Source of the DNA: Bacteroidota bacterium
GTDB taxonomy: Bacteria; Bacteroidota; Bacteroidia; CAILMK01
DNA: 37,560 nucleotides
Assembly (NCBI GenBank): GCA_026391915.1
Contig: JAPLCZ010000237.1
Location: forward strand, 1-37,560
Direction of reading: 5' to 3'
The notes under the pieces are model-generated. The model worked only from the letters and a program-made list of their open reading frames with translations, was not told the origin of the DNA and did not search any database. Below, piece after piece: positions 3,001 through 37,560 of the stretch (within the stretch, counting starts at the first letter, position 1; each line of letters opens with the position of its first letter). The position numbers and the translations under genes were made by a program.

Positions 3001-6000
3001 TTGCCCCCATATTGGAATATAAACTGTTATTATAGAAGAAATTACCTTTACTAAAATAGCAATAGATATTTGCATAGTTAAGGTATGAATAAGTAGAGGT
3101 AGTTGTTGTAGAAATCCAGTTATTAGAGATTAATGATGAAGAACCATTGCCATAATAAAAGTACATTCCATTGCCACCATAATAACCAGTTTCAACAAAA
3201 ATTTTGTTCTTAGAAATTGCAGTGATTGTATTGCAATACTGAAGGTATAGACCATAAGTATTAGAATAGTCAGAAGAACCATTGGCCAATACCCTTAGGT
3301 AATTGCCAGTCATATTAATGTTATTAATATAGTAACAGTATAAACCGTATGTTCTAACACTATCAATGTAGTTATTTTTAATAACTAAACCATTGGTAGA
3401 ACCACTATAGTTATAATAGTGGAATGAATAGCTTCCGTTTGTAATGCTGTTTTGGTCAAAAGTATTTGCAGAGTCATCAGTAGTTCCATATTTATATATG
3501 TTATAGAAACTGCTATAGTAATATGGAGATTTAACACCAATAATTCTGCAATGAGAGAAAGTGTTGTTGGTTGAAGTATTCTGGATAGTTACTAAAGTGC
3601 CATAACTGCCATATACAGAACCAGTACGTTGGATGGTCATCTTGCTAAATTTCACAAAATCACAACCATTCAAAGTAATGTTAGAAGCAGAGTTAGAAGT
3701 AGAATTATAAAGATTTACTTTAGTACTATCTAAGCTTTGGCTTTGGAATGTAACAGTATTAATAGCAGAAGCACCAGGTACGTTACCAATAGAAATTCGC
3801 TGATTATAAGAACCATCTCTAACATTAAAAATAAGAGGTGCGCATACACCATAAGTAGTTAGGTCAGCAACAGCCAATGCAAAAGTTGAATAAGTTGGGG
3901 AAGACCCACCAATTGTTTTTGTACCACTAAGAGCTGCTTTTAAGTTTACAGAACTTAAAGTGTCATTAGAGTTATCGTTATCTGAATTGCCATTAGGTTT
4001 GTATGAGGTAGCAACAACATTATAAACACCAGAAACGAATGAGTAGGTTCCAAGTGTGATATTTGAGCTAGAACCTGCAGCAAGACTACCTGTCCATTGA
4101 TAAGGAGTTTGAGTAGTACCATTTACACTCCATGCTATAGAATCTGAAACAAGTGTAACACTACCATTATTTGTTAATGTAATAGTTACATTATTAGTAC
4201 CTACGCAATAGTTTGCTACAGGAGTAATATAAGCAGTAATTACAGCATCATATGGAGAAGGAGTAGGCTCATCAGCACCAATAGTTGGCTTAAGAGCATT
4301 TCTAAATTCACCATCATAGTCAGTGGTTAAACCAGAAATAGGAGTTCCTTTTTTCTTGATACCAGCTGCTGAAGTATGCAAATCAGTATTACTGGTAAAG
4401 GTTGGATCCATACTTACGCTATTAGCGTCATATCCAGAACCTGAACTTTGCCAAGAAGAAAGTGTATAATAAGTGCTTCCGTTATAAGAAACCAACGCAT
4501 AGCTTCCACCGCCTGCATTATATAAATTGTTATAATTACAAGAAGTAAATACTGGGCTATAGTAATAGTAGGAATAAAGTGCATAACCTCTGTTGGTATT
4601 TACCAAATTGTTATTTTTTATGTTCCAGTTATTAGCGCTATAGTAGTAGTAGTTATATAAGCAATAACCATTTGCATTATAGCTTGAGGTATTATAGATA
4701 TTTATATTGTTATAATAGATATCCCAGTTTTGACTGTAGTAAGCATAAATACCATAAGCGTTATAATTGATACCGTTAATAGCTATCATGTTATTAGTAA
4801 TTTTACCAGTACCAGAAGCAGGGCTACAATAGTAGTTTAAGTAGATTCCGTAACCACCAGTTGGTAAATCAATTTTATTGTTTCTGATGTAAGTATTATC
4901 AGTTACATACTGCATCATAATAGCATAACCATAACTGCTTAATTTATTGGTAATTTTATTTCCGGTAATAGTTAAGTCATTTTGGTACACGCAATAAATT
5001 TGATAATAGTAAGAGCTATCAATTGTATTATTTGTAATGCGGTAACCAACTTCATGGGTGCTATAATTACCTTGTAAATACATGGTATAATATCCACCAC
5101 GGATAATGTTATTATTAAATGTGTTAGCTGAGTCAAGTGAGCTATAGTCATCAAAAACAACATAGCCATAGTTATAAGAACTTGTAATACCCTTAAGGAT
5201 ACTATTCTTGAATGTGTTATGACTTGCACCACTTATTAATCTCACAACTTCAGTACTTACATAAGAAGCAGCTTGGCGCATGATAGTCATTTTGTTAAAA
5301 ATGATATACTCTGCTCCAACAAGACCTACAACGTAATTAGGAGAAGTGGCAGAACCACTTCTGTATAAGGTAACTTTAGTACTATCTAAGCTTTGGCTTT
5401 GGAAAGTAATAGTGTTGGTAGCAGAAGCACCAGTAATAGCTGGTATAGTTACATATTCGTTATAGCTACCATCTCTTACATTAAATGTTGTTGCACCACA
5501 AACACCGCGAGATGAAAGGGCTGTAACCGCAGCAGTAAATGTTGCAAAATCAGGAGAAGAACCACCAATAGTTTTAGAACCATTTAAAGCAGAATTCTTA
5601 GCAACAGCAGTAGTGTCATTTACATGATTTACATCAGCAACACCATTGGGGCTTTCACTCCAAACTTTTAGGTTATATACAGTATTTGCAGCCATCGATA
5701 AGCTACCAATATTAATGCTTACAGAAGTACCGGAAGCAAGAGATCCTGTATAAGAATAAGTAGAAGCAGTACCACCATTAACTTTCATTTTGATAGAAGC
5801 AGAAGTCAAGGTATTGATACCGCCATTCAAAAGAGTTACATATATGTTATATGATGTGCCACCGCAATAGTTGCTTGGGCTATCAATACTAGTAATACCA
5901 GCATCATCAGCAGGAGGAGTAAATTCATCAGAACCAATATCAGGAGTAGTAGCATTACGAGTAGTACCATCCATATCGGTAGTTACATCAGTGATTGGTG

Positions 6001-8880
6001 TAGCTGTTCCATTTAAGGCAGCGTTAAATACGTGCAAATTTGTATTGCTTGTATAAAGCGGGTCAACAGAAACAGAATTGGCATCAACGCCAGAACCACT
6101 TTGATGAGAAGCTAAATCAGAATAAGCAGAGCCACCATAATAAGTTAGGTTAGATCCTGATGTATAAAGATTGTTATAATTAATTGCACTAAAGTAAGAT
6201 GTAACTCCAACATACATTGCATAGCCGTTTGAATTATTAACAAAGTTGTTATTGTATAATACATTATTACCACCACCATAAGAGTAACTATATAAAGCAG
6301 CGCTACTTGTAGCTGTTGCAGAATAGATATTTACGTTATTGTAAACTACCTGTAGGTAACTATTGTAAGCCATATTGATACCGTAGCCATTGTAAGAACC
6401 TGGTACTATAGCAATTGTGTTATTTGCAATAAGGCCTTTTATACCACTTGTACATGTATTATCATAAAGATAAAGACCAGCATAGCAACCAATAGGAGTG
6501 TTAATATTATTATTGGTTACGCGTAAACGAGTATCGCAATACTCTAATAGAACGCCATAATATGGGAAATTAGTAACTGTGTTATGGTCAATTGTTAACC
6601 TATCTTGATTGATACAAAGTATAGCATAATAATAAGCACTATCAATTTGGTTATAAGTAAATGTATTTCCAAATGAGTGGCTGCTGTATGAACCATAGAA
6701 ATAAATGGCATAACCATATTTAATTACGTTATTAGAAATTAGGTTACCAGTATCCAGAGAAGAACCACCTTCGTAAAGACCTTGACCATATTGATAGTTA
6801 TATATACGGTTGTTTAAGATTTTATTTTTATGAGCTCCACCTTTAAATTCAATAGTATAACTACCGCTGGTCTGCTTAATAGTCATTTTTTGGAAAGTCA
6901 CGAAATCAGCACCATTAAGGGTGATTACTGTGCTGCCATTTTGCAAGGTAACTTTTGTGCTATCCAAACTTTGGCTTTGGAAAGTAATTGTATTAGTTGC
7001 AGATGCACCTTGTATTGGGTCTAGAGTAATGGACTCTGTATAAGATCCATTTCTAACATTAAAGGTTACTGCTCCACAAACACCATTTGCATTAAGTGCG
7101 GCAACTGCTAAAGCAAAAGTTGCATAATCAGGGCTACTGCCACCAATGGTTTTAGAACCACTTAATGATGCACCAAGTGTAGAACTTACTGAATCATTTG
7201 CTGCATTGCCATCAGCACCACCATTAGGGTTGGTAACTTTAGCAGCCACAGTATTGCTGCTACCGCTAAAAGTTTTTGTACCCACCATAACAGAGGTATT
7301 ACTACCGCTTGCCAATGAACCTGAATATACATAATCAGTTTGAGCAGTACCATTGAACCACCATTTAATAGTGGCACTAGTAAGCGTATTCAAACCAGCA
7401 TTTTTCAAATGAACATATACGGCTTTAGAATTACCTGCACAATAAGTAGAAGGACTATCTACATCTGTAATTCCGGCGTCATCAGAAACTGGAGAGATTT
7501 CATCAGCACCAATATCAGGTGTAGATGTATTTCTTACATCTCCGTCAAAATCTCTTGTATAACCAGTTATTACAACACCTTTAGCGTTAAGCCCGGTGTT
7601 ATTAATATGAAGGTCATTAGTTGCAGTATTGTTATAGCTTGGGTCAACATTTAAAGAATTTGCATCTTTACTTGTTCCGCTTTTCCAAGAGCTGAAGCTT
7701 GAGTAAGTGCTACTATTATATGTTCCAAAACTACCAGAACTTACCTGATAATAATTATTATAGTTTATAGAACCAGAAGACATAGTAGGGTAGATGTCAT
7801 AAATTTTATTACCGTAATTGGTAACAATATTATTGTTTTTGATAATACTACCAGTACTAGATGAAGACACATTTACAGCAGAATAGTAGCCATAAGATGC
7901 TTCATAATAAATATTGTTATAAACTAAATCTGTATAAGTTGAACTGCCCAGATAAACTGAACAATAAGAATAAGAATAACCTGCACCACTTGTAATAAAG
8001 TTGTTTGCAATTTTACAATGCTTAGAGGAAATACCTCCTGCATCATATAAATAAACAGGATAATAATTATCGCCAATTCTATTGCCAGTAATAATAGAAC
8101 TTCTGCAATATTGTAAATAGATATTCATCCCATAAGGATAACCAGTTGCACCAATGTTAGAATTGGTAACATGTAATTGAGTATAATTAGCTTGAATATT
8201 ATAGTACATTGGGTTGCTATCAATATCGCAATGGTCAAAATAAAATACATCCTGATAAGAAGTAGAATATGCACCATATAAATTGATACATCCGTAATAA
8301 GCTCCACGGTGAATACCGCAATAAGTGAAATGATTACCAGTATCCTGATAACCCCAATCTGATGTAATAGCTGCATCATAGGTAGACCATGATTGGTCTT
8401 CGGTACCTCTAATTTGGCAAGAGGTAAAGCTGTTGTTGTTAGAACCGCCATCAATACGAACACAAGTTCCGTAATAGTTACCTGAGCCATTAGTTACCTC
8501 AATGCTCATGTCTTTAAAATTCACCCACTCGCAACCATTTAATTGGATTACGTAATTGAGGTAAGTAGTGTTGGACATATCATAAGCATCCTTATATAGG
8601 TGTACTTTAGAACTGTCCCCAGAAGCACCTTGGAAAGTAATAGTGTAGGATGAGGAGGCACCTGAGATGGCAGAAATCTCCATCTGTTCATCATAGGCTC
8701 CATCAGCTACATTAAAAATTACTGCCCCAGAAACTCCGGAACCATTTGCAGAGCCCCCATCGGAACGGGAACCTGAGATAAGGTCTCCTACTGCAGCATC
8801 AAAACTTTGATAGTTTGTGCTGCTGGCAGAAGAGCCAGGATCAATTGTGTACGTACCACTTAGTTGAGCCCAACCGCTAA
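1..8880 (-). repeat. Six tandem modules (~1.6 kb each) inside the giant gene
   Basis: Module starts, marked by the TIGGSSP-like motif, lie near 8860 (divergent, TIDPGSS), 7165, 5585, 3935, 2270 and 630. The spacing is about 1580-1695 bases. Five modules are complete and the sixth is cut by the window edge. Each module holds one beta-helix segment and one CARDB-like domain. The first module is the most divergent and carries a Ser/Gly-rich insertion before GAVIFNVADG. Confidence 0.85.
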
Positions 8881-30638: not shown

Positions 30639-31331
30639 CTATTCCTTAATAAACTTTTCGTAGCCTGTATTGCCTTTGGCATCTACTGTTTTTACAATGT
30701 ATAAACCAGAGGCCAATGAAGTAACATTGATGTAGCTAATACCTGTTAAACTCATATTGCTTTTCACCACTTGTTGTCCGCTTAAGTTATAAACTGAAAT
30801 AACTTTGGTGTTGCCATAGTTCATTATTTGAAGGCTCTCTTTTACAGGGTTGGGATACAGTTTGATGTTATCTGTTTTACTAACCGTATAATTAATACCG
30901 GTAGTTTCTGTTTCAACTGCAATGCTCATAGTATCTTCTCTTACACCAGCAGAGGTAGTTTGAATCACCTGAATTACTACAGTGCCTTTGCCTTTAACGC
31001 CTTTGGTATCTACTAATAACTTAAAGAAAGCAGTATCTCCCGCTTTCATGGTGGTATTAGAGCCGCTATCTGGGATACCTGCAAAGCAATTTCCATTATC
31101 GCAAATAGAGTAATCCCAAGAGTTAATTAAGGTGTTGCTTATTCTTTTCCATCTCAAATTTAGGCTTTTGCCTGACATATTATAAAAATGACTATAAACC
31201 TCAGGGTAGCCTGTTAGTGGTATTTGAACAGATAAATGTTTGCCCTCTACATAACCTAAGTTTTGAGATTTAGCAGAAAAGGAAGCAATTACAGATAGAC
31301 TTATAATTGCTAATGTTAAGATGTTCTTCAT
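30639..31331 (-). CDS. Small secreted protein with T9SS sorting domain
   Basis: From the ATG at 31331 the product is 230 residues. An upstream in-frame ATG at 31355 would add eight residues, but the downstream one gives a clean signal peptide (MKNILTLAIISLSV) and lies about 15 bases after the predicted transcript start. A central beta-rich domain (about 20-145) contains a CDNGNCF pair of cysteines. The last 75 residues are a T9SS type A signal: KLYPNPVKESLQI, ISVYNLSGQQVV, SGLYIVKTVD and a basic end. The protein should be exported across the outer membrane. No enzymatic motif is recognised. A strong terminator lies at each end. Confidence 0.85.
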   Translation of the reverse strand: MKNILTLAIISLSVIASFSAKSQNLGYVEGKHLSVQIPLTGYPEVYSHFYNMSGKSLNLRWKRISNTLINSWDYSICDNGNCFAGIPDSGSNTTMKAGDTAFFKLLVDTKGVKGKGTVVIQVIQTTSAGVREDTMSIAVETETTGINYTVSKTDNIKLYPNPVKESLQIMNYGNTKVISVYNLSGQQVVKSNMSLTGISYINVTSLASGLYIVKTVDAKGNTGYEKFIKE

Positions 31332-31352
31332 GTTGTTTTGAATTAATGAGGA

Positions 31353-31385
31353 CAAAGATAAAGGATATTATTATCAGATTGGAAA
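31353..31385 (-). promoter_or_regulatory. Putative promoter of the small T9SS gene
   Basis: On the minus strand TATCTTTG (31360-31353) is an exact -7 match, with TTTC (31385-31382) 21 bases upstream. It lies between the terminator at 31403 and the ATG at 31331, implying a monocistronic unit. Confidence 0.5.
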
Positions 31386-31471: not shown

Positions 31472-32482
31472 CTACCCATTCACCTGCGTATGCAAATTGG
31501 CAGCATCAGTACCATTATTGCGCACATAAAGGTGGGTATTTATCACGTTATCCCATCCAATATCACCTGCTAAATGGTTTTGTACTGGTGCGCCGCCGGG
31601 CATTTCAAAATGGTCTGGCGGTGCGGGCATTTCTGTAATATTATCACCATACCATATTTGCAGATTGCCACCCGGCGTTGCGCTGGCAAGGGTATCAAAC
31701 AGCATACTGGTATCTGCCCCAATGCCTGTGAGGCCTGTTATTTCTATAGTTGCACCTGCGTTAATAGTTGTATTGATGCTTTGTGTAGGCGCAGGTGCGC
31801 TTTCATTAATTACATATTCATCATATTTAGCAGGGTTATTACCTACGCCACCCCAATAAGTTTGCCCTATCTCTGCCAATAATATCATTTCTCTATATAA
31901 AGCATTGCCTTTATTAATTCTTTCTACCTTTTTGGTGGTTCTGGTCTTTTTTGCAGTGGTTAATGCTGTTTGATTGGCATCAAAAGCCGTTACCATATTG
32001 GTAAATGTGGTTACATAAGCGGCATTAATATTATATCCTGCTGCAAACCCAGCCTGATTAAGAATTAATGAATCTCTGCACACCTTTGCATTTGCCAAAA
32101 GCTCCTCAGTATTTTGCAAACTGAGGCTGCCCAACAGCCCAAAAGCATTGAGCATATCCTGCCCGCTTACCCCATTTGCCCATACATTTTGCCCTACTTT
32201 CACCACCAATTTGTGCATTTCATCATATACCGCTTTTTGGGCAGTATCCCTTGCGCCCCGCGCCAAAGTAATAGGGCCCATAAAAACCTGGTCACCCGGC
32301 ACCGCCTCAAAAGTATCTCTAAGAGCCTGTAATGCAATAATCCGCGCCGCAGATACATTGTACTCTGCCAATACTGCTTGGTCAGTATTTAAAGAAATTT
32401 TAAGGCTATCCGCCCTTTCAGTTAAGTGTGTATCAGAGAAATTATACTCTCTTACTACTGCGTCTGCTTTTTGTGTGGTCAT
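31472..32482 (-). CDS. Uncharacterised 336-residue protein (helical N-half, beta-rich C-half)
   Basis: No family is recognised. There is no signal peptide, lipobox or membrane segment, so it is predicted cytoplasmic unless exported by another route. Residues 1-210 look mainly alpha-helical and rich in Ala, Thr and Asn (NAAYVTTFTNMVTAFDANQT, then the basic TAKKTRTTKKVERINKG). After a SAPAPTQSINTT linker at about 230, the C-terminal 100 residues look like a beta-sandwich (GATIEITGL, GNLQIWYGD, NTHLYVRNNG). Only one cysteine is present. The start ATG is followed by a polar N-terminus and no upstream -7 element was seen; a hairpin repeat lies 40-140 bases upstream. The codon pattern and length argue for a real gene. 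Confidence 0.75.
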   Translation of the reverse strand: MTTQKADAVVREYNFSDTHLTERADSLKISLNTDQAVLAEYNVSAARIIALQALRDTFEAVPGDQVFMGPITLARGARDTAQKAVYDEMHKLVVKVGQNVWANGVSGQDMLNAFGLLGSLSLQNTEELLANAKVCRDSLILNQAGFAAGYNINAAYVTTFTNMVTAFDANQTALTTAKKTRTTKKVERINKGNALYREMILLAEIGQTYWGGVGNNPAKYDEYVINESAPAPTQSINTTINAGATIEITGLTGIGADTSMLFDTLASATPGGNLQIWYGDNITEMPAPPDHFEMPGGAPVQNHLAGDIGWDNVINTHLYVRNNGTDAANLHTQVNG

Positions 32483-35577: not shown

Positions 35578-36432
35578 ATGAAACAGAAACTACTCGGGAT
35601 TGCATTTATATTTATTGCCCTACAATGTGCAGGAGGGAATATTTATCAGAAAATTTACATCAATAAAGGGATGATGACGGGTGCGGATACTACCCTTTTC
35701 CCTGCATTGGCATTTAACAGCACCTCTGCTTTTTCGCAAGAAAATACCCGAATTAATTTAAAGCCCGGTGATAGTTTGCATTTGTGGGTAGTGAATAATG
35801 ATAGTGATGCTCATTTTATAAGAGCTCAAGGATTTGGGATGGTGTATGGAATGAAAAAAGGAGATTCATTGTTATGCACTTTTAGTTTCTCCAAAGAGGG
35901 AGTTTATATTTTGTATGACAGAGGCTCCAACAATAAATTTTCATACCTCGGCTTAGCCACCATGATTTGTGTAAGCAATTCCACCAAGAATAATTTCTAC
36001 TGGAATATTAAAGAGCAGGAAAAATCTTACAACAAAACACTGGCAAATGATAGCCCTGTAAACTGGAAAAAATACCTGCCTGATTATTTTACCATCAACA
36101 GCAGAAGCTACCCTGTTTTGCAGAAAGACACAGCGGCTTTGGTGAAGGGAAAGGTGGGTGATACAATTAGAATTTTTGTGGCAAATACTGGCATCAGTAT
36201 GCATGCAATGCATTTTCATGGATTCCATACCAAAGCAATTTTTTGTTCTGACGCTAACATGATTGGCTGGCAAAAGGACACATGGAATATGAAACCCATG
36301 CAAACATTTATTCTTGAAATGATTCCGGACAAACCCGGAATGTACCCTGTGCATGACCACAATTTAGTAACCCTAACAGGTGGCGGCAGATACCCTAATG
36401 GAATGATGGTGATGATGGAAATAACAAAGTAA
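35578..36432 (+). CDS. Cupredoxin-fold protein with half of a multicopper oxidase site (subunit A)
   Basis: The 284-residue exported protein (signal peptide about 1-20) has two cupredoxin-like domains. Domain 1 (about 25-135) lacks a copper motif: DSDAHFIRAQGFG stands where HxHG would be expected. Domain 2 (about 175-284) has MHAMHFHGFH, giving the HxHG pair H212/H214, and YPVHDHNL, giving the HxH pair H259/H261. These match the first-half (HWHG and HSH) trinuclear-copper ligands of multicopper oxidases. There is no HCH and no type 1 cysteine, so alone it should not be an oxidase. The next gene has the complementary ligands. No T9SS domain is present. C17 precedes the likely cleavage site, but the -1 residue is Gln, so a lipobox is doubtful. 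Confidence 0.85.
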   Translation: MKQKLLGIAFIFIALQCAGGNIYQKIYINKGMMTGADTTLFPALAFNSTSAFSQENTRINLKPGDSLHLWVVNNDSDAHFIRAQGFGMVYGMKKGDSLLCTFSFSKEGVYILYDRGSNNKFSYLGLATMICVSNSTKNNFYWNIKEQEKSYNKTLANDSPVNWKKYLPDYFTINSRSYPVLQKDTAALVKGKVGDTIRIFVANTGISMHAMHFHGFHTKAIFCSDANMIGWQKDTWNMKPMQTFILEMIPDKPGMYPVHDHNLVTLTGGGRYPNGMMVMMEITK

Positions 36433-36463
36433 TTTGAAAATGAGAAAATTTGAAAATTTGAAA

Positions 36464-37560
36464 ATGAGAAAATGGTTAGTGATTCTAATCATCTTTGCAA
36501 CATATGGAGGAGAAGTATTAGCTCAGAAAAACGTAGATTATTTATTGATTATGCGCAACACAGGTAAGGATACCATGTGGGATGGTGTGAGTATGAAAAC
36601 CTACGGATTTGCACAAGGCCTAAAGGAAAATCCTAAAGTGCCGGGAGTAACATTATATGCCAATGAAGGTGATACTTTAAGGCTCACCGCGTGGAATATT
36701 TCTCAGGGTGACCCTCACACCATTCACCCACATGGGTTGGATGTTGACCAGATGAATGATGGTGTACCAATGACTTCATTTTCCATCAAACACATGAAAA
36801 AATATGTGTATAAAATCCCTTGCACAAATGCCGGGACATACTTTTATCATTGCCACATGGCAGATGTGGTGCATCTACAAATGGGGATGTATGGATTTGT
36901 GGTGGTGCGCCCAAAAGATGGTAGCAAAACCACTTGGACAGGGGGCTATAAATTTGATAAAGAGTTCAATTTACTCTTCTCTGAATTTGATAAAATGTGG
37001 CATGATTCATTAACGGATTCTGTGGCTATGAAGAAGGACAGTATGATGTTAGAAAATTTCAATATCCCAACCTATAACCCTAATTATTTTTTAGTGAATG
37101 GAAGGAGTCATCAGCAAATAAAAAAGGACTCCACTTCTTTTCTAAAAGCCAAAGCCAATGAGACTATTTATCTACGATTAGGGAATATGGGTTATTATTT
37201 AAACGAGGTAATTTTCCCTGCAAATTTGGATGCTACTTGGGTGGATTCTGATGGAAGACAACTGCCCAATGCGGTTAAAAATAACAGTCTCCAAATAGCC
37301 CCCGGAGAAAGATATGGAGTGCTTTTAAAAGCCAAAACAGAATTCATAGATTCTATAAAAGTGCGCTATATAAACCCAAATACTTATGCTGCGCATGATT
37401 CGGAATTTATCCCTGTGGAGATAAAAGGAACAGTTGGTATTGAAGATAATTCTTTGGTGAAACCAAGGCTTCGTATTTCTCCCAATCCTGTTCATGATTT
37501 TGTGAAATTGGAAGGGTGGGGGAGTGGTGATTTTGGCGAAGCCAAAATCACCATACTTAC
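36464..37560 (+). CDS. Multicopper-oxidase-like protein with T9SS domain (subunit B), C-terminus off window
   Basis: The start at 36464 gives a clean signal peptide (MRKWLVILIIFATYGG, ending LAQ). An in-frame ATG at 36440 would add MRKFENLK from an intergenic-type repeat and is disfavoured. 365 codons are visible with no stop. Domain 1 (about 25-150) has HxxHxH at H85/H88/H90 (PHTIHPHG) and HCHx5Hx4M at H129, C130, H131, H137 and M142, a full type 1 copper set plus four trinuclear-centre histidines. Domain 2 (about 160-318) lacks histidine pairs (GNMGYYLNEVIFP stands where HxH would be expected). From about 335 LRISPNPVHDFVKLE begins a T9SS sorting domain cut by the window edge. It probably oxidises Cu(I) or a phenolic substrate outside the cell, if completed by the neighbouring protein. 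Confidence 0.88.
   Translation, partial: MRKWLVILIIFATYGGEVLAQKNVDYLLIMRNTGKDTMWDGVSMKTYGFAQGLKENPKVPGVTLYANEGDTLRLTAWNISQGDPHTIHPHGLDVDQMNDGVPMTSFSIKHMKKYVYKIPCTNAGTYFYHCHMADVVHLQMGMYGFVVVRPKDGSKTTWTGGYKFDKEFNLLFSEFDKMWHDSLTDSVAMKKDSMMLENFNIPTYNPNYFLVNGRSHQQIKKDSTSFLKAKANETIYLRLGNMGYYLNEVIFPANLDATWVDSDGRQLPNAVKNNSLQIAPGERYGVLLKAKTEFIDSIKVRYINPNTYAAHDSEFIPVEIKGTVGIEDNSLVKPRLRISPNPVHDFVKLEGWGSGDFGEAKITIL

Follow-up and report, generated by a model that had tools for sequence, protein, structure and literature searches.

Two adjacent genes with complementary ligand halves encode a putative heteromeric multicopper oxidase

Results

A tandem pair of cupredoxin genes at the locus

We analysed a 37,560-nucleotide stretch of a Bacteroidota genome (contig JAPLCZ010000237.1, positions 1 to 37,560), hereafter the window, in which two genes, A and B, follow one another at the downstream end (Table 1). 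A first-pass annotation had assigned coordinates and residue numbers to both genes, and all of these proved correct on recheck. It had also placed the ligand motifs of A in its second domain only and those of B in its first domain only, and this confinement was confirmed. Reading B from the ATG at 36464, residues 129-142 are HCHMADVVHLQMGM; alternative in-frame starts lie at 36440 and 36434. In the assembly, B continues through a short N run and ends about 150 bases past the end of the window, which gives a completed protein of 415-425 aa. The TIGR04183 match to the completed B is weak, with the N run falling inside the matched region. Gene A encodes eight histidines in total, six of them within the two domain 2 motifs and the other two being H68 and H79, whereas its Cys223 lies outside any copper motif. 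The fuller form of the first A motif is HxxHxHGxH, in which H209 and H217 are invariant too. The two A motifs appeared together in none of 20,000 shuffles of A, and their co-occurrence by chance is excluded.

Table 1 Coordinates of the paired genes, their motifs and the gene C homologue within the window.
Feature	Position	Strand	Description	Basis or conservation
Gene C homologue	30639..31355	-	238 aa T9SS protein; 27% identity with the A-upstream gene of Lishizhenia tianjinensis	Family alignment
Gene A	35578..36432	+	284 aa, predicted secreted, two cupredoxin domains, no T9SS tail	ORF, motifs, Pfam, PDB sequence matches
A domain 1, degenerate cupredoxin	35647..36027	+	Type 1 Cys replaced by Asp, trinuclear His gone	Alignment
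A domain 2 motif HAMHFHGFH (residues 209-217)	36202..36228	+	H209, H212, H214, H217	Invariant, 83 aligned pairs
A domain 2 motif HDHN (residues 259-262)	36352..36363	+	H259, H261	Invariant, 83 aligned pairs
Gene B	36464..37560, on to about 37711 beyond the window	+	Predicted secreted, two cupredoxin domains, T9SS sorting tail	
B domain 1 motif HTIHPHG (residues 85-91)	36716..36736	+	H85 type 1; H88, H90 trinuclear	Invariant in 83 pairs; 18/18 cross-phylum
B domain 1 motif HCHx5Hx4M	36848..36889	+	H129, C130, H131, H137, M142	Invariant in 83 pairs; 18/18 cross-phylum
B domain 2, degenerate	36974..37423	+	Four type C domain 2 His-ligand positions lost	HxH pairs kept in 0/18
B T9SS C-terminal sorting domain, start	37451..37560	+	Remainder outside the window	TIGR04183 weak match; PNP motif in 80/80 relatives

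A and B belong by domain content to the multicopper oxidase superfamily

Pfam Cu-oxidase_2 matched A domain 2 (1.1e-9) and Cu-oxidase_3 matched B domain 1 (2.2e-18), B also being matched by Cu-oxidase_2 and Cu-oxidase. The Cu-oxidase_2/3 matches of both proteins exceed the cut-off, which places them by domain content in the multicopper oxidase (MCO) superfamily. Among relatives of A, domain 1 is likewise recognised, as Cu-oxidase_3/Cupredoxin_1. By sequence, the nearest relatives in the PDB are type C two-domain MCOs: A domain 2 aligned with domain 2 of 2zwn and 3g5w over the exact ligand loops, and B domain 1 aligned with domain 1 of 3gdc, 3g5w and 2zwn, the matches to the last two spanning the exact ligand loops. 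The NirK equivalog model TIGR02376 gave 18 bits for A and 54 bits for B against a cut-off of 296, and neither is thus a NirK by this model.

The full MCO set, comprising two His, Cys and Met of the type 1 site and eight trinuclear His, is present in A and B jointly and in neither singly. Taken individually, both proteins lack the combination that marks a type C single chain (type 1 copper in domain 1 plus HxHG/HxH in domain 2); encoded by two genes with two domains each, they also differ from six-domain MCOs, which are one polypeptide. Single-chain relatives with both halves occur within the same phylum (L010, L011 and L118), and that of L118 adjoins an A-B pair. We also considered DUF4396 proteins of Rhizobiales, to which only A-like matches were found. 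They are single chains with their own HxHG/HxH in domain 1 and HxHG/HCH in domain 2, and were placed outside the split system.

The two ligand halves are complementary and invariant

We aligned 19 A proteins, 18 B proteins and 5 single-chain homologues. The four domain 2 His-pair positions carry His in 19/19 A proteins and 5/5 single chains, and in B none does bar one chance His. Conversely, the domain 1 set of HxxHxH, HCH, His and Met is complete in all 18 B proteins, whereas in domain 1 of A the Cys is missing from 19/19 proteins, with Asp in its place in 16/19, and the Met is missing from 19/19. The single-chain homologues retain both ligand halves. Within the degenerate domain 1 of A, the first type 1 His is kept in 17/19 beside the Asp of 16/19, forming a conserved His/Asp pair.

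The first-pass annotation had proposed that A domain 2 and B domain 1 share one MCO copper set, with degenerate partner domains, and the sequence tests support this. It had further named co-conservation of both halves among other A-B pairs as a check, and by pattern 83 of the 85 distinct pairs show it; one of the two exceptions is a truncated contig and in the other the pattern overlooked a His motif. All ligands are 100% conserved over the 83 aligned pairs, at overall identities down to about 30%; since the pattern of the 84,980-genome scan described below included A's motif, the conservation of A there is partly selected and that of B is not, while 13-14 A genes reached via B are free of this motif selection bias.

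A and B occur together across Bacteroidota

We searched 395 genomes of the class for B-like genes, leaving the A motifs out of the query. Clear B relatives with intact ligands were found in 15 of the 395, the window's genome included, and A lies immediately upstream in 15/15. Homologues of A in genomes lacking B, or of B acting alone, had been named as findings that would speak against a joint site. An A profile run over the same 395 genomes returned the same 15 genomes and zero A lacking B, and the one lone B that was found has lost all copper ligands. This homologue (L086 4228-5169, genome G068) keeps the fold region while every copper ligand is gone, and its genome contains no A. It may be regarded as a natural loss experiment.

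We then ran the A profile over 84,980 species genomes, obtaining 176 relatives, and B follows A in 80/80 of those kept. In total, 94 Bacteroidota A-B loci were collected, 85 of them distinct; in 82 the two genes lie at most 20 bases apart, the commonest gap being -4 (overlapping stop and start). A and B were absent from the 11 other genomes of the window's order. A first scan of contigs with A as the sole query gave no match, and none was found in viral contigs.

Two candidate forms of the pair deserve mention. An apparent natural A-B fusion of 689 aa (L074 4126-6195 and L143 5938-8007) was rejected, as it arises from a frame change in a G run and retains the B signal peptide internally; annotation pipelines would call a false fusion from this metagenome assembly. 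At L151, A makes up the C-terminal end of a protein of 1092 aa (3511-6789). Pfam gives no match to the first 800 residues of this protein, and the partner B has 680 aa (6802-8844). The unusual extension might point to an electron donor or a substrate.

Split pairs on plasmids outside the phylum and the origin of the pair

The same split was found on plasmids of Indioceanicola profundi, with two pairs, and on a Paraburkholderia plasmid, where the gene order is B then A. On a plasmid of Arthrobacter sp. FW305-BF8 (L172 3539-5886), the A frame enters the N-terminus of B and is then interrupted by a frameshift; from its sequence, this copy suggests a single-chain, four-domain A-B MCO in Actinobacteria. 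An apparent orphan A in Paenarthrobacter was discounted as a case of A without B, for B fragments lie elsewhere on the plasmid and the copy is damaged.

In the tree, the B proteins group together (96/78), as do the A proteins (100/99) except for the long-branched Paraburkholderia A. The A and B groups are adjacent within the single-chain set, although this placement is weak (85/77). The simplest reading of these sequences would be a single duplication of a type C enzyme, then loss of complementary halves and, at a later stage, transfer; the Paraburkholderia pair may have arisen separately.

Export signals are divided between the subunits

The first-pass annotation had noticed a T9SS signal on B and none on A. 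This observation holds as a general rule among the Bacteroidota pairs, where the T9SS tail motif is present in 80/80 B and 0/80 A proteins, and a signal-peptide-like start in 79/80 of each. In Indioceanicola, a twin-arginine signal (KRRSFLKRG) is located on A, and B is without a signal. For other enzymes, it is established that a partner lacking a signal can hitchhike through Tat (PMC4273604, PMC10924467; reviewed in PMC9251779). The T9SS rule and the Tat/no-signal pairs both fit an assembly of A and B ahead of the last export step, as we infer. In Bacteroidota, the T9SS tail of B would then carry A out of the cell.

A predicted ring order places A domain 2 against B domain 1

In L087, the closest relative, A and B stand in one frame with a single TAA between them, and read-through would yield one chain. 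We predicted the structure of this tethered A+B chain with AlphaFold2 (33 alignment rows) and obtained a pLDDT of 88.7 and a pTM of 0.90. Large mixed alignments had placed B rows on A; these were left out, and alignment A8 was used for folding, once A4, made in the same manner from fewer rows, had been verified row by row. Searched with Foldseek, the tethered chain gave ceruloplasmin, factors V/VIII and MnxG as the top four-domain PDB matches, with a TMq of 0.58-0.67 and an rmsd of 7-9 Å; at 7-8 Å, the fit of the model to the ceruloplasmin ring is loose. Structures 2zwn and 3g5w match one subunit of the tethered chain (TMt 0.71). The match runs sequentially across four domains of the ring MCOs and thus gives the predicted order A1-A2-B1-B2 (domains 1 and 2 of A, then of B), as in the ceruloplasmin ring, with A2 abutting B1. 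Predicted alone, the A2-B1 fragment reached a pTM of 0.51 and was not confidently docked. We also examined covariation between the two proteins, and A2 x B1 accounted for 49 of the top 100 pairs, compared with 9.6 in full shuffles and 48 in swaps between near relatives. As proof of contact this signal was set aside, because the near-relative swaps almost equal it and phylogeny alone could suffice.

Neighbouring genes

A third gene, C, recurs beside the pair. Its family consists of conserved 220-260 aa T9SS proteins with the motif N..P..W..S.CDY..C...IP..G.M, and in most Bacteroidota pairs it lies directly upstream of A (for example, L092 5283-5969); L007 8860-9540 is also a member. The window's copy is 4 kb from A on the opposite strand. 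Elsewhere in the genome, a C copy follows a three-domain CueO-like MCO. C is possibly an accessory factor or a redox partner of secreted MCOs. The A-B locus also has as neighbours a TonB receptor and a DUF6660 protein rich in Cys, which hint at a role in handling copper or metals but do not establish it. The window further encodes a 336 aa protein (31472-32482, minus strand) with no Pfam or NCBIfam match, situated between the TonB receptor and gene C.

Discussion

The analysis establishes that A and B carry complementary ligands, pair obligately as coupled genes and are homologous to MCOs in their domains, and it predicts their ring order. We consider it very probable, judging from the sequences and the predicted structure, that the two are paralogous subunits of one heteromeric MCO with a putative shared copper site at A2-B1. 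In such an enzyme, B domain 1 would hold the type 1 (blue) copper together with four trinuclear His (H88, H90, H129 and H131), A domain 2 would give the remaining four (H212, H214, H259 and H261), and the trinuclear centre would arise only where these two domains make contact. Electrons would pass from the substrate to the B type 1 copper, across the Cys130-His129/131 bridge to the shared trinuclear centre, and on to O2. Copper binding, oxidase activity, co-export and stoichiometry of the pair are what we infer from these data.

Other explanations of the pair have to be weighed. B could by itself transfer electrons through a type 1 copper, while A would serve separately, with its own histidines, as a chaperone or store for copper, the complementarity being a relic of shared ancestry. 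The type 1 site of B domain 1 is complete on its own, and the nearby DUF6660 protein and TonB receptor may be concerned with metals, yet we find this account unlikely, as it leaves unexplained the strict conservation of four B and four A trinuclear His, the obligate pairing, and the loss of all ligands in the sole genome with B but without A. That A and B form separate homotrimers, meeting as extracellular neighbours and exchanging electrons without a shared copper site, seems highly improbable: an A trimer would have no complete site, in a B trimer every trinuclear centre would lack half of its ligands, the tethered chain folds in the prediction as an A-B unit (pTM 0.90), and the signal-less B of Indioceanicola needs A to exit the cytoplasm. 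In favour of separate trimers one may cite the homotrimeric state of two-domain MCO relatives (PMC13151041) and the missing T9SS tail of A, which could remain periplasmic.

It is scarcely credible that A and B are the remains of one MCO gene that is decaying or was damaged in sequencing. Conservation refutes decay, as the pair recurs in 85 distinct versions with invariant ligands even where identity falls to about 30%, and each subunit has two domains and its own signal peptide, A not being a truncated B. In favour of decay or damage one may cite the frameshifts in the L074/L143 'fusion' and the Arthrobacter copy and the N run in B of the window's assembly.

Returning to a heteromeric oxidase with the site at A2-B1, we consider how its subunits could be arranged. 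The first-pass annotation had envisaged a trimer with copper sites at A-B interfaces; the mixed A-B site is supported, whereas the trimer in its alternating form does not stand. A six-domain ring comprises three two-domain units, so that alternating A and B cannot close it. The assembly must therefore be A2B, AB2, larger, or differently closed, with fewer active sites than a homotrimer. The pair probably originated by duplication of a two-domain MCO, after which each copy lost a different half of the ligands; a single active site would then remain in place of the three of the homotrimer. On balance, the sequences incline us to view A-B as a widespread, obligately heteromeric MCO class, with a single A2-B1 trinuclear centre and mutual export dependence (T9SS via B, and Tat via A in Indioceanicola), that would represent a living counterpart of the hypothesised step from the three-site homotrimer to the single-site six-domain chain.

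Two-domain MCOs have been proposed as missing links between cupredoxins, laccases and ceruloplasmin. Models lead from three equivalent sites to one inside a fused six-domain chain (PMC3600357). The A-B split would present the three-to-one reduction of sites between separate, coupled genes, where the order of events is open to direct test. The opposite placement of export signals on A and B would offer a natural system for studying the co-export of a folded complex. For genome annotation, the label 'multicopper oxidase domain-containing protein' would hide a two-component enzyme, and either gene alone should give an inactive protein.

Among known copper proteins, NirK is a homotrimer with its catalytic copper site between subunits. 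That site is a single type 2 site, whereas A and B together carry the eight-His trinuclear set of O2-reducing MCOs. In POXA3-type laccases, the copper site is not known to be divided between homologous subunits. These fungal heterodimeric enzymes are, like A/B, MCOs with two different subunits, and pair a laccase-like large subunit with a small protein that enhances both activity and stability (PMC10741624). Our search of a 5.39-million-paper library found no heteromeric, heterotrimeric, heterodimeric, split or two-subunit MCO.

The six-domain MCOs include ceruloplasmin and the bacterial MnxG. The bacterial members have a single trinuclear centre, located between domains 2 and 3 (PMC3600357), a contact that corresponds to A2-B1. 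Six-domain MCOs are, however, one polypeptide, whereas A and B are two genes with four domains in total, and MnxG-like proteins have the type 1 site in domain 2, whereas that of A/B lies in the domain 3 equivalent, B1. Type C two-domain MCOs have type 1 copper in domain 1 and form trimers in which each trinuclear centre is built from two protomers (PMC13151041). Those of known structure (mgLAC 2zwn and Nitrosomonas europaea 3g5w) have the two-cupredoxin architecture in common with A and B, and A2 and B1 align with them correspondingly. The type C enzymes carry both halves on one gene and form a homotrimer with three sites, whereas A and B carry half each, with at most one site per contact. By its sequence, the A-B pair would thus resemble a type C two-domain MCO in its working, yet neither protein fits the single-chain definition.
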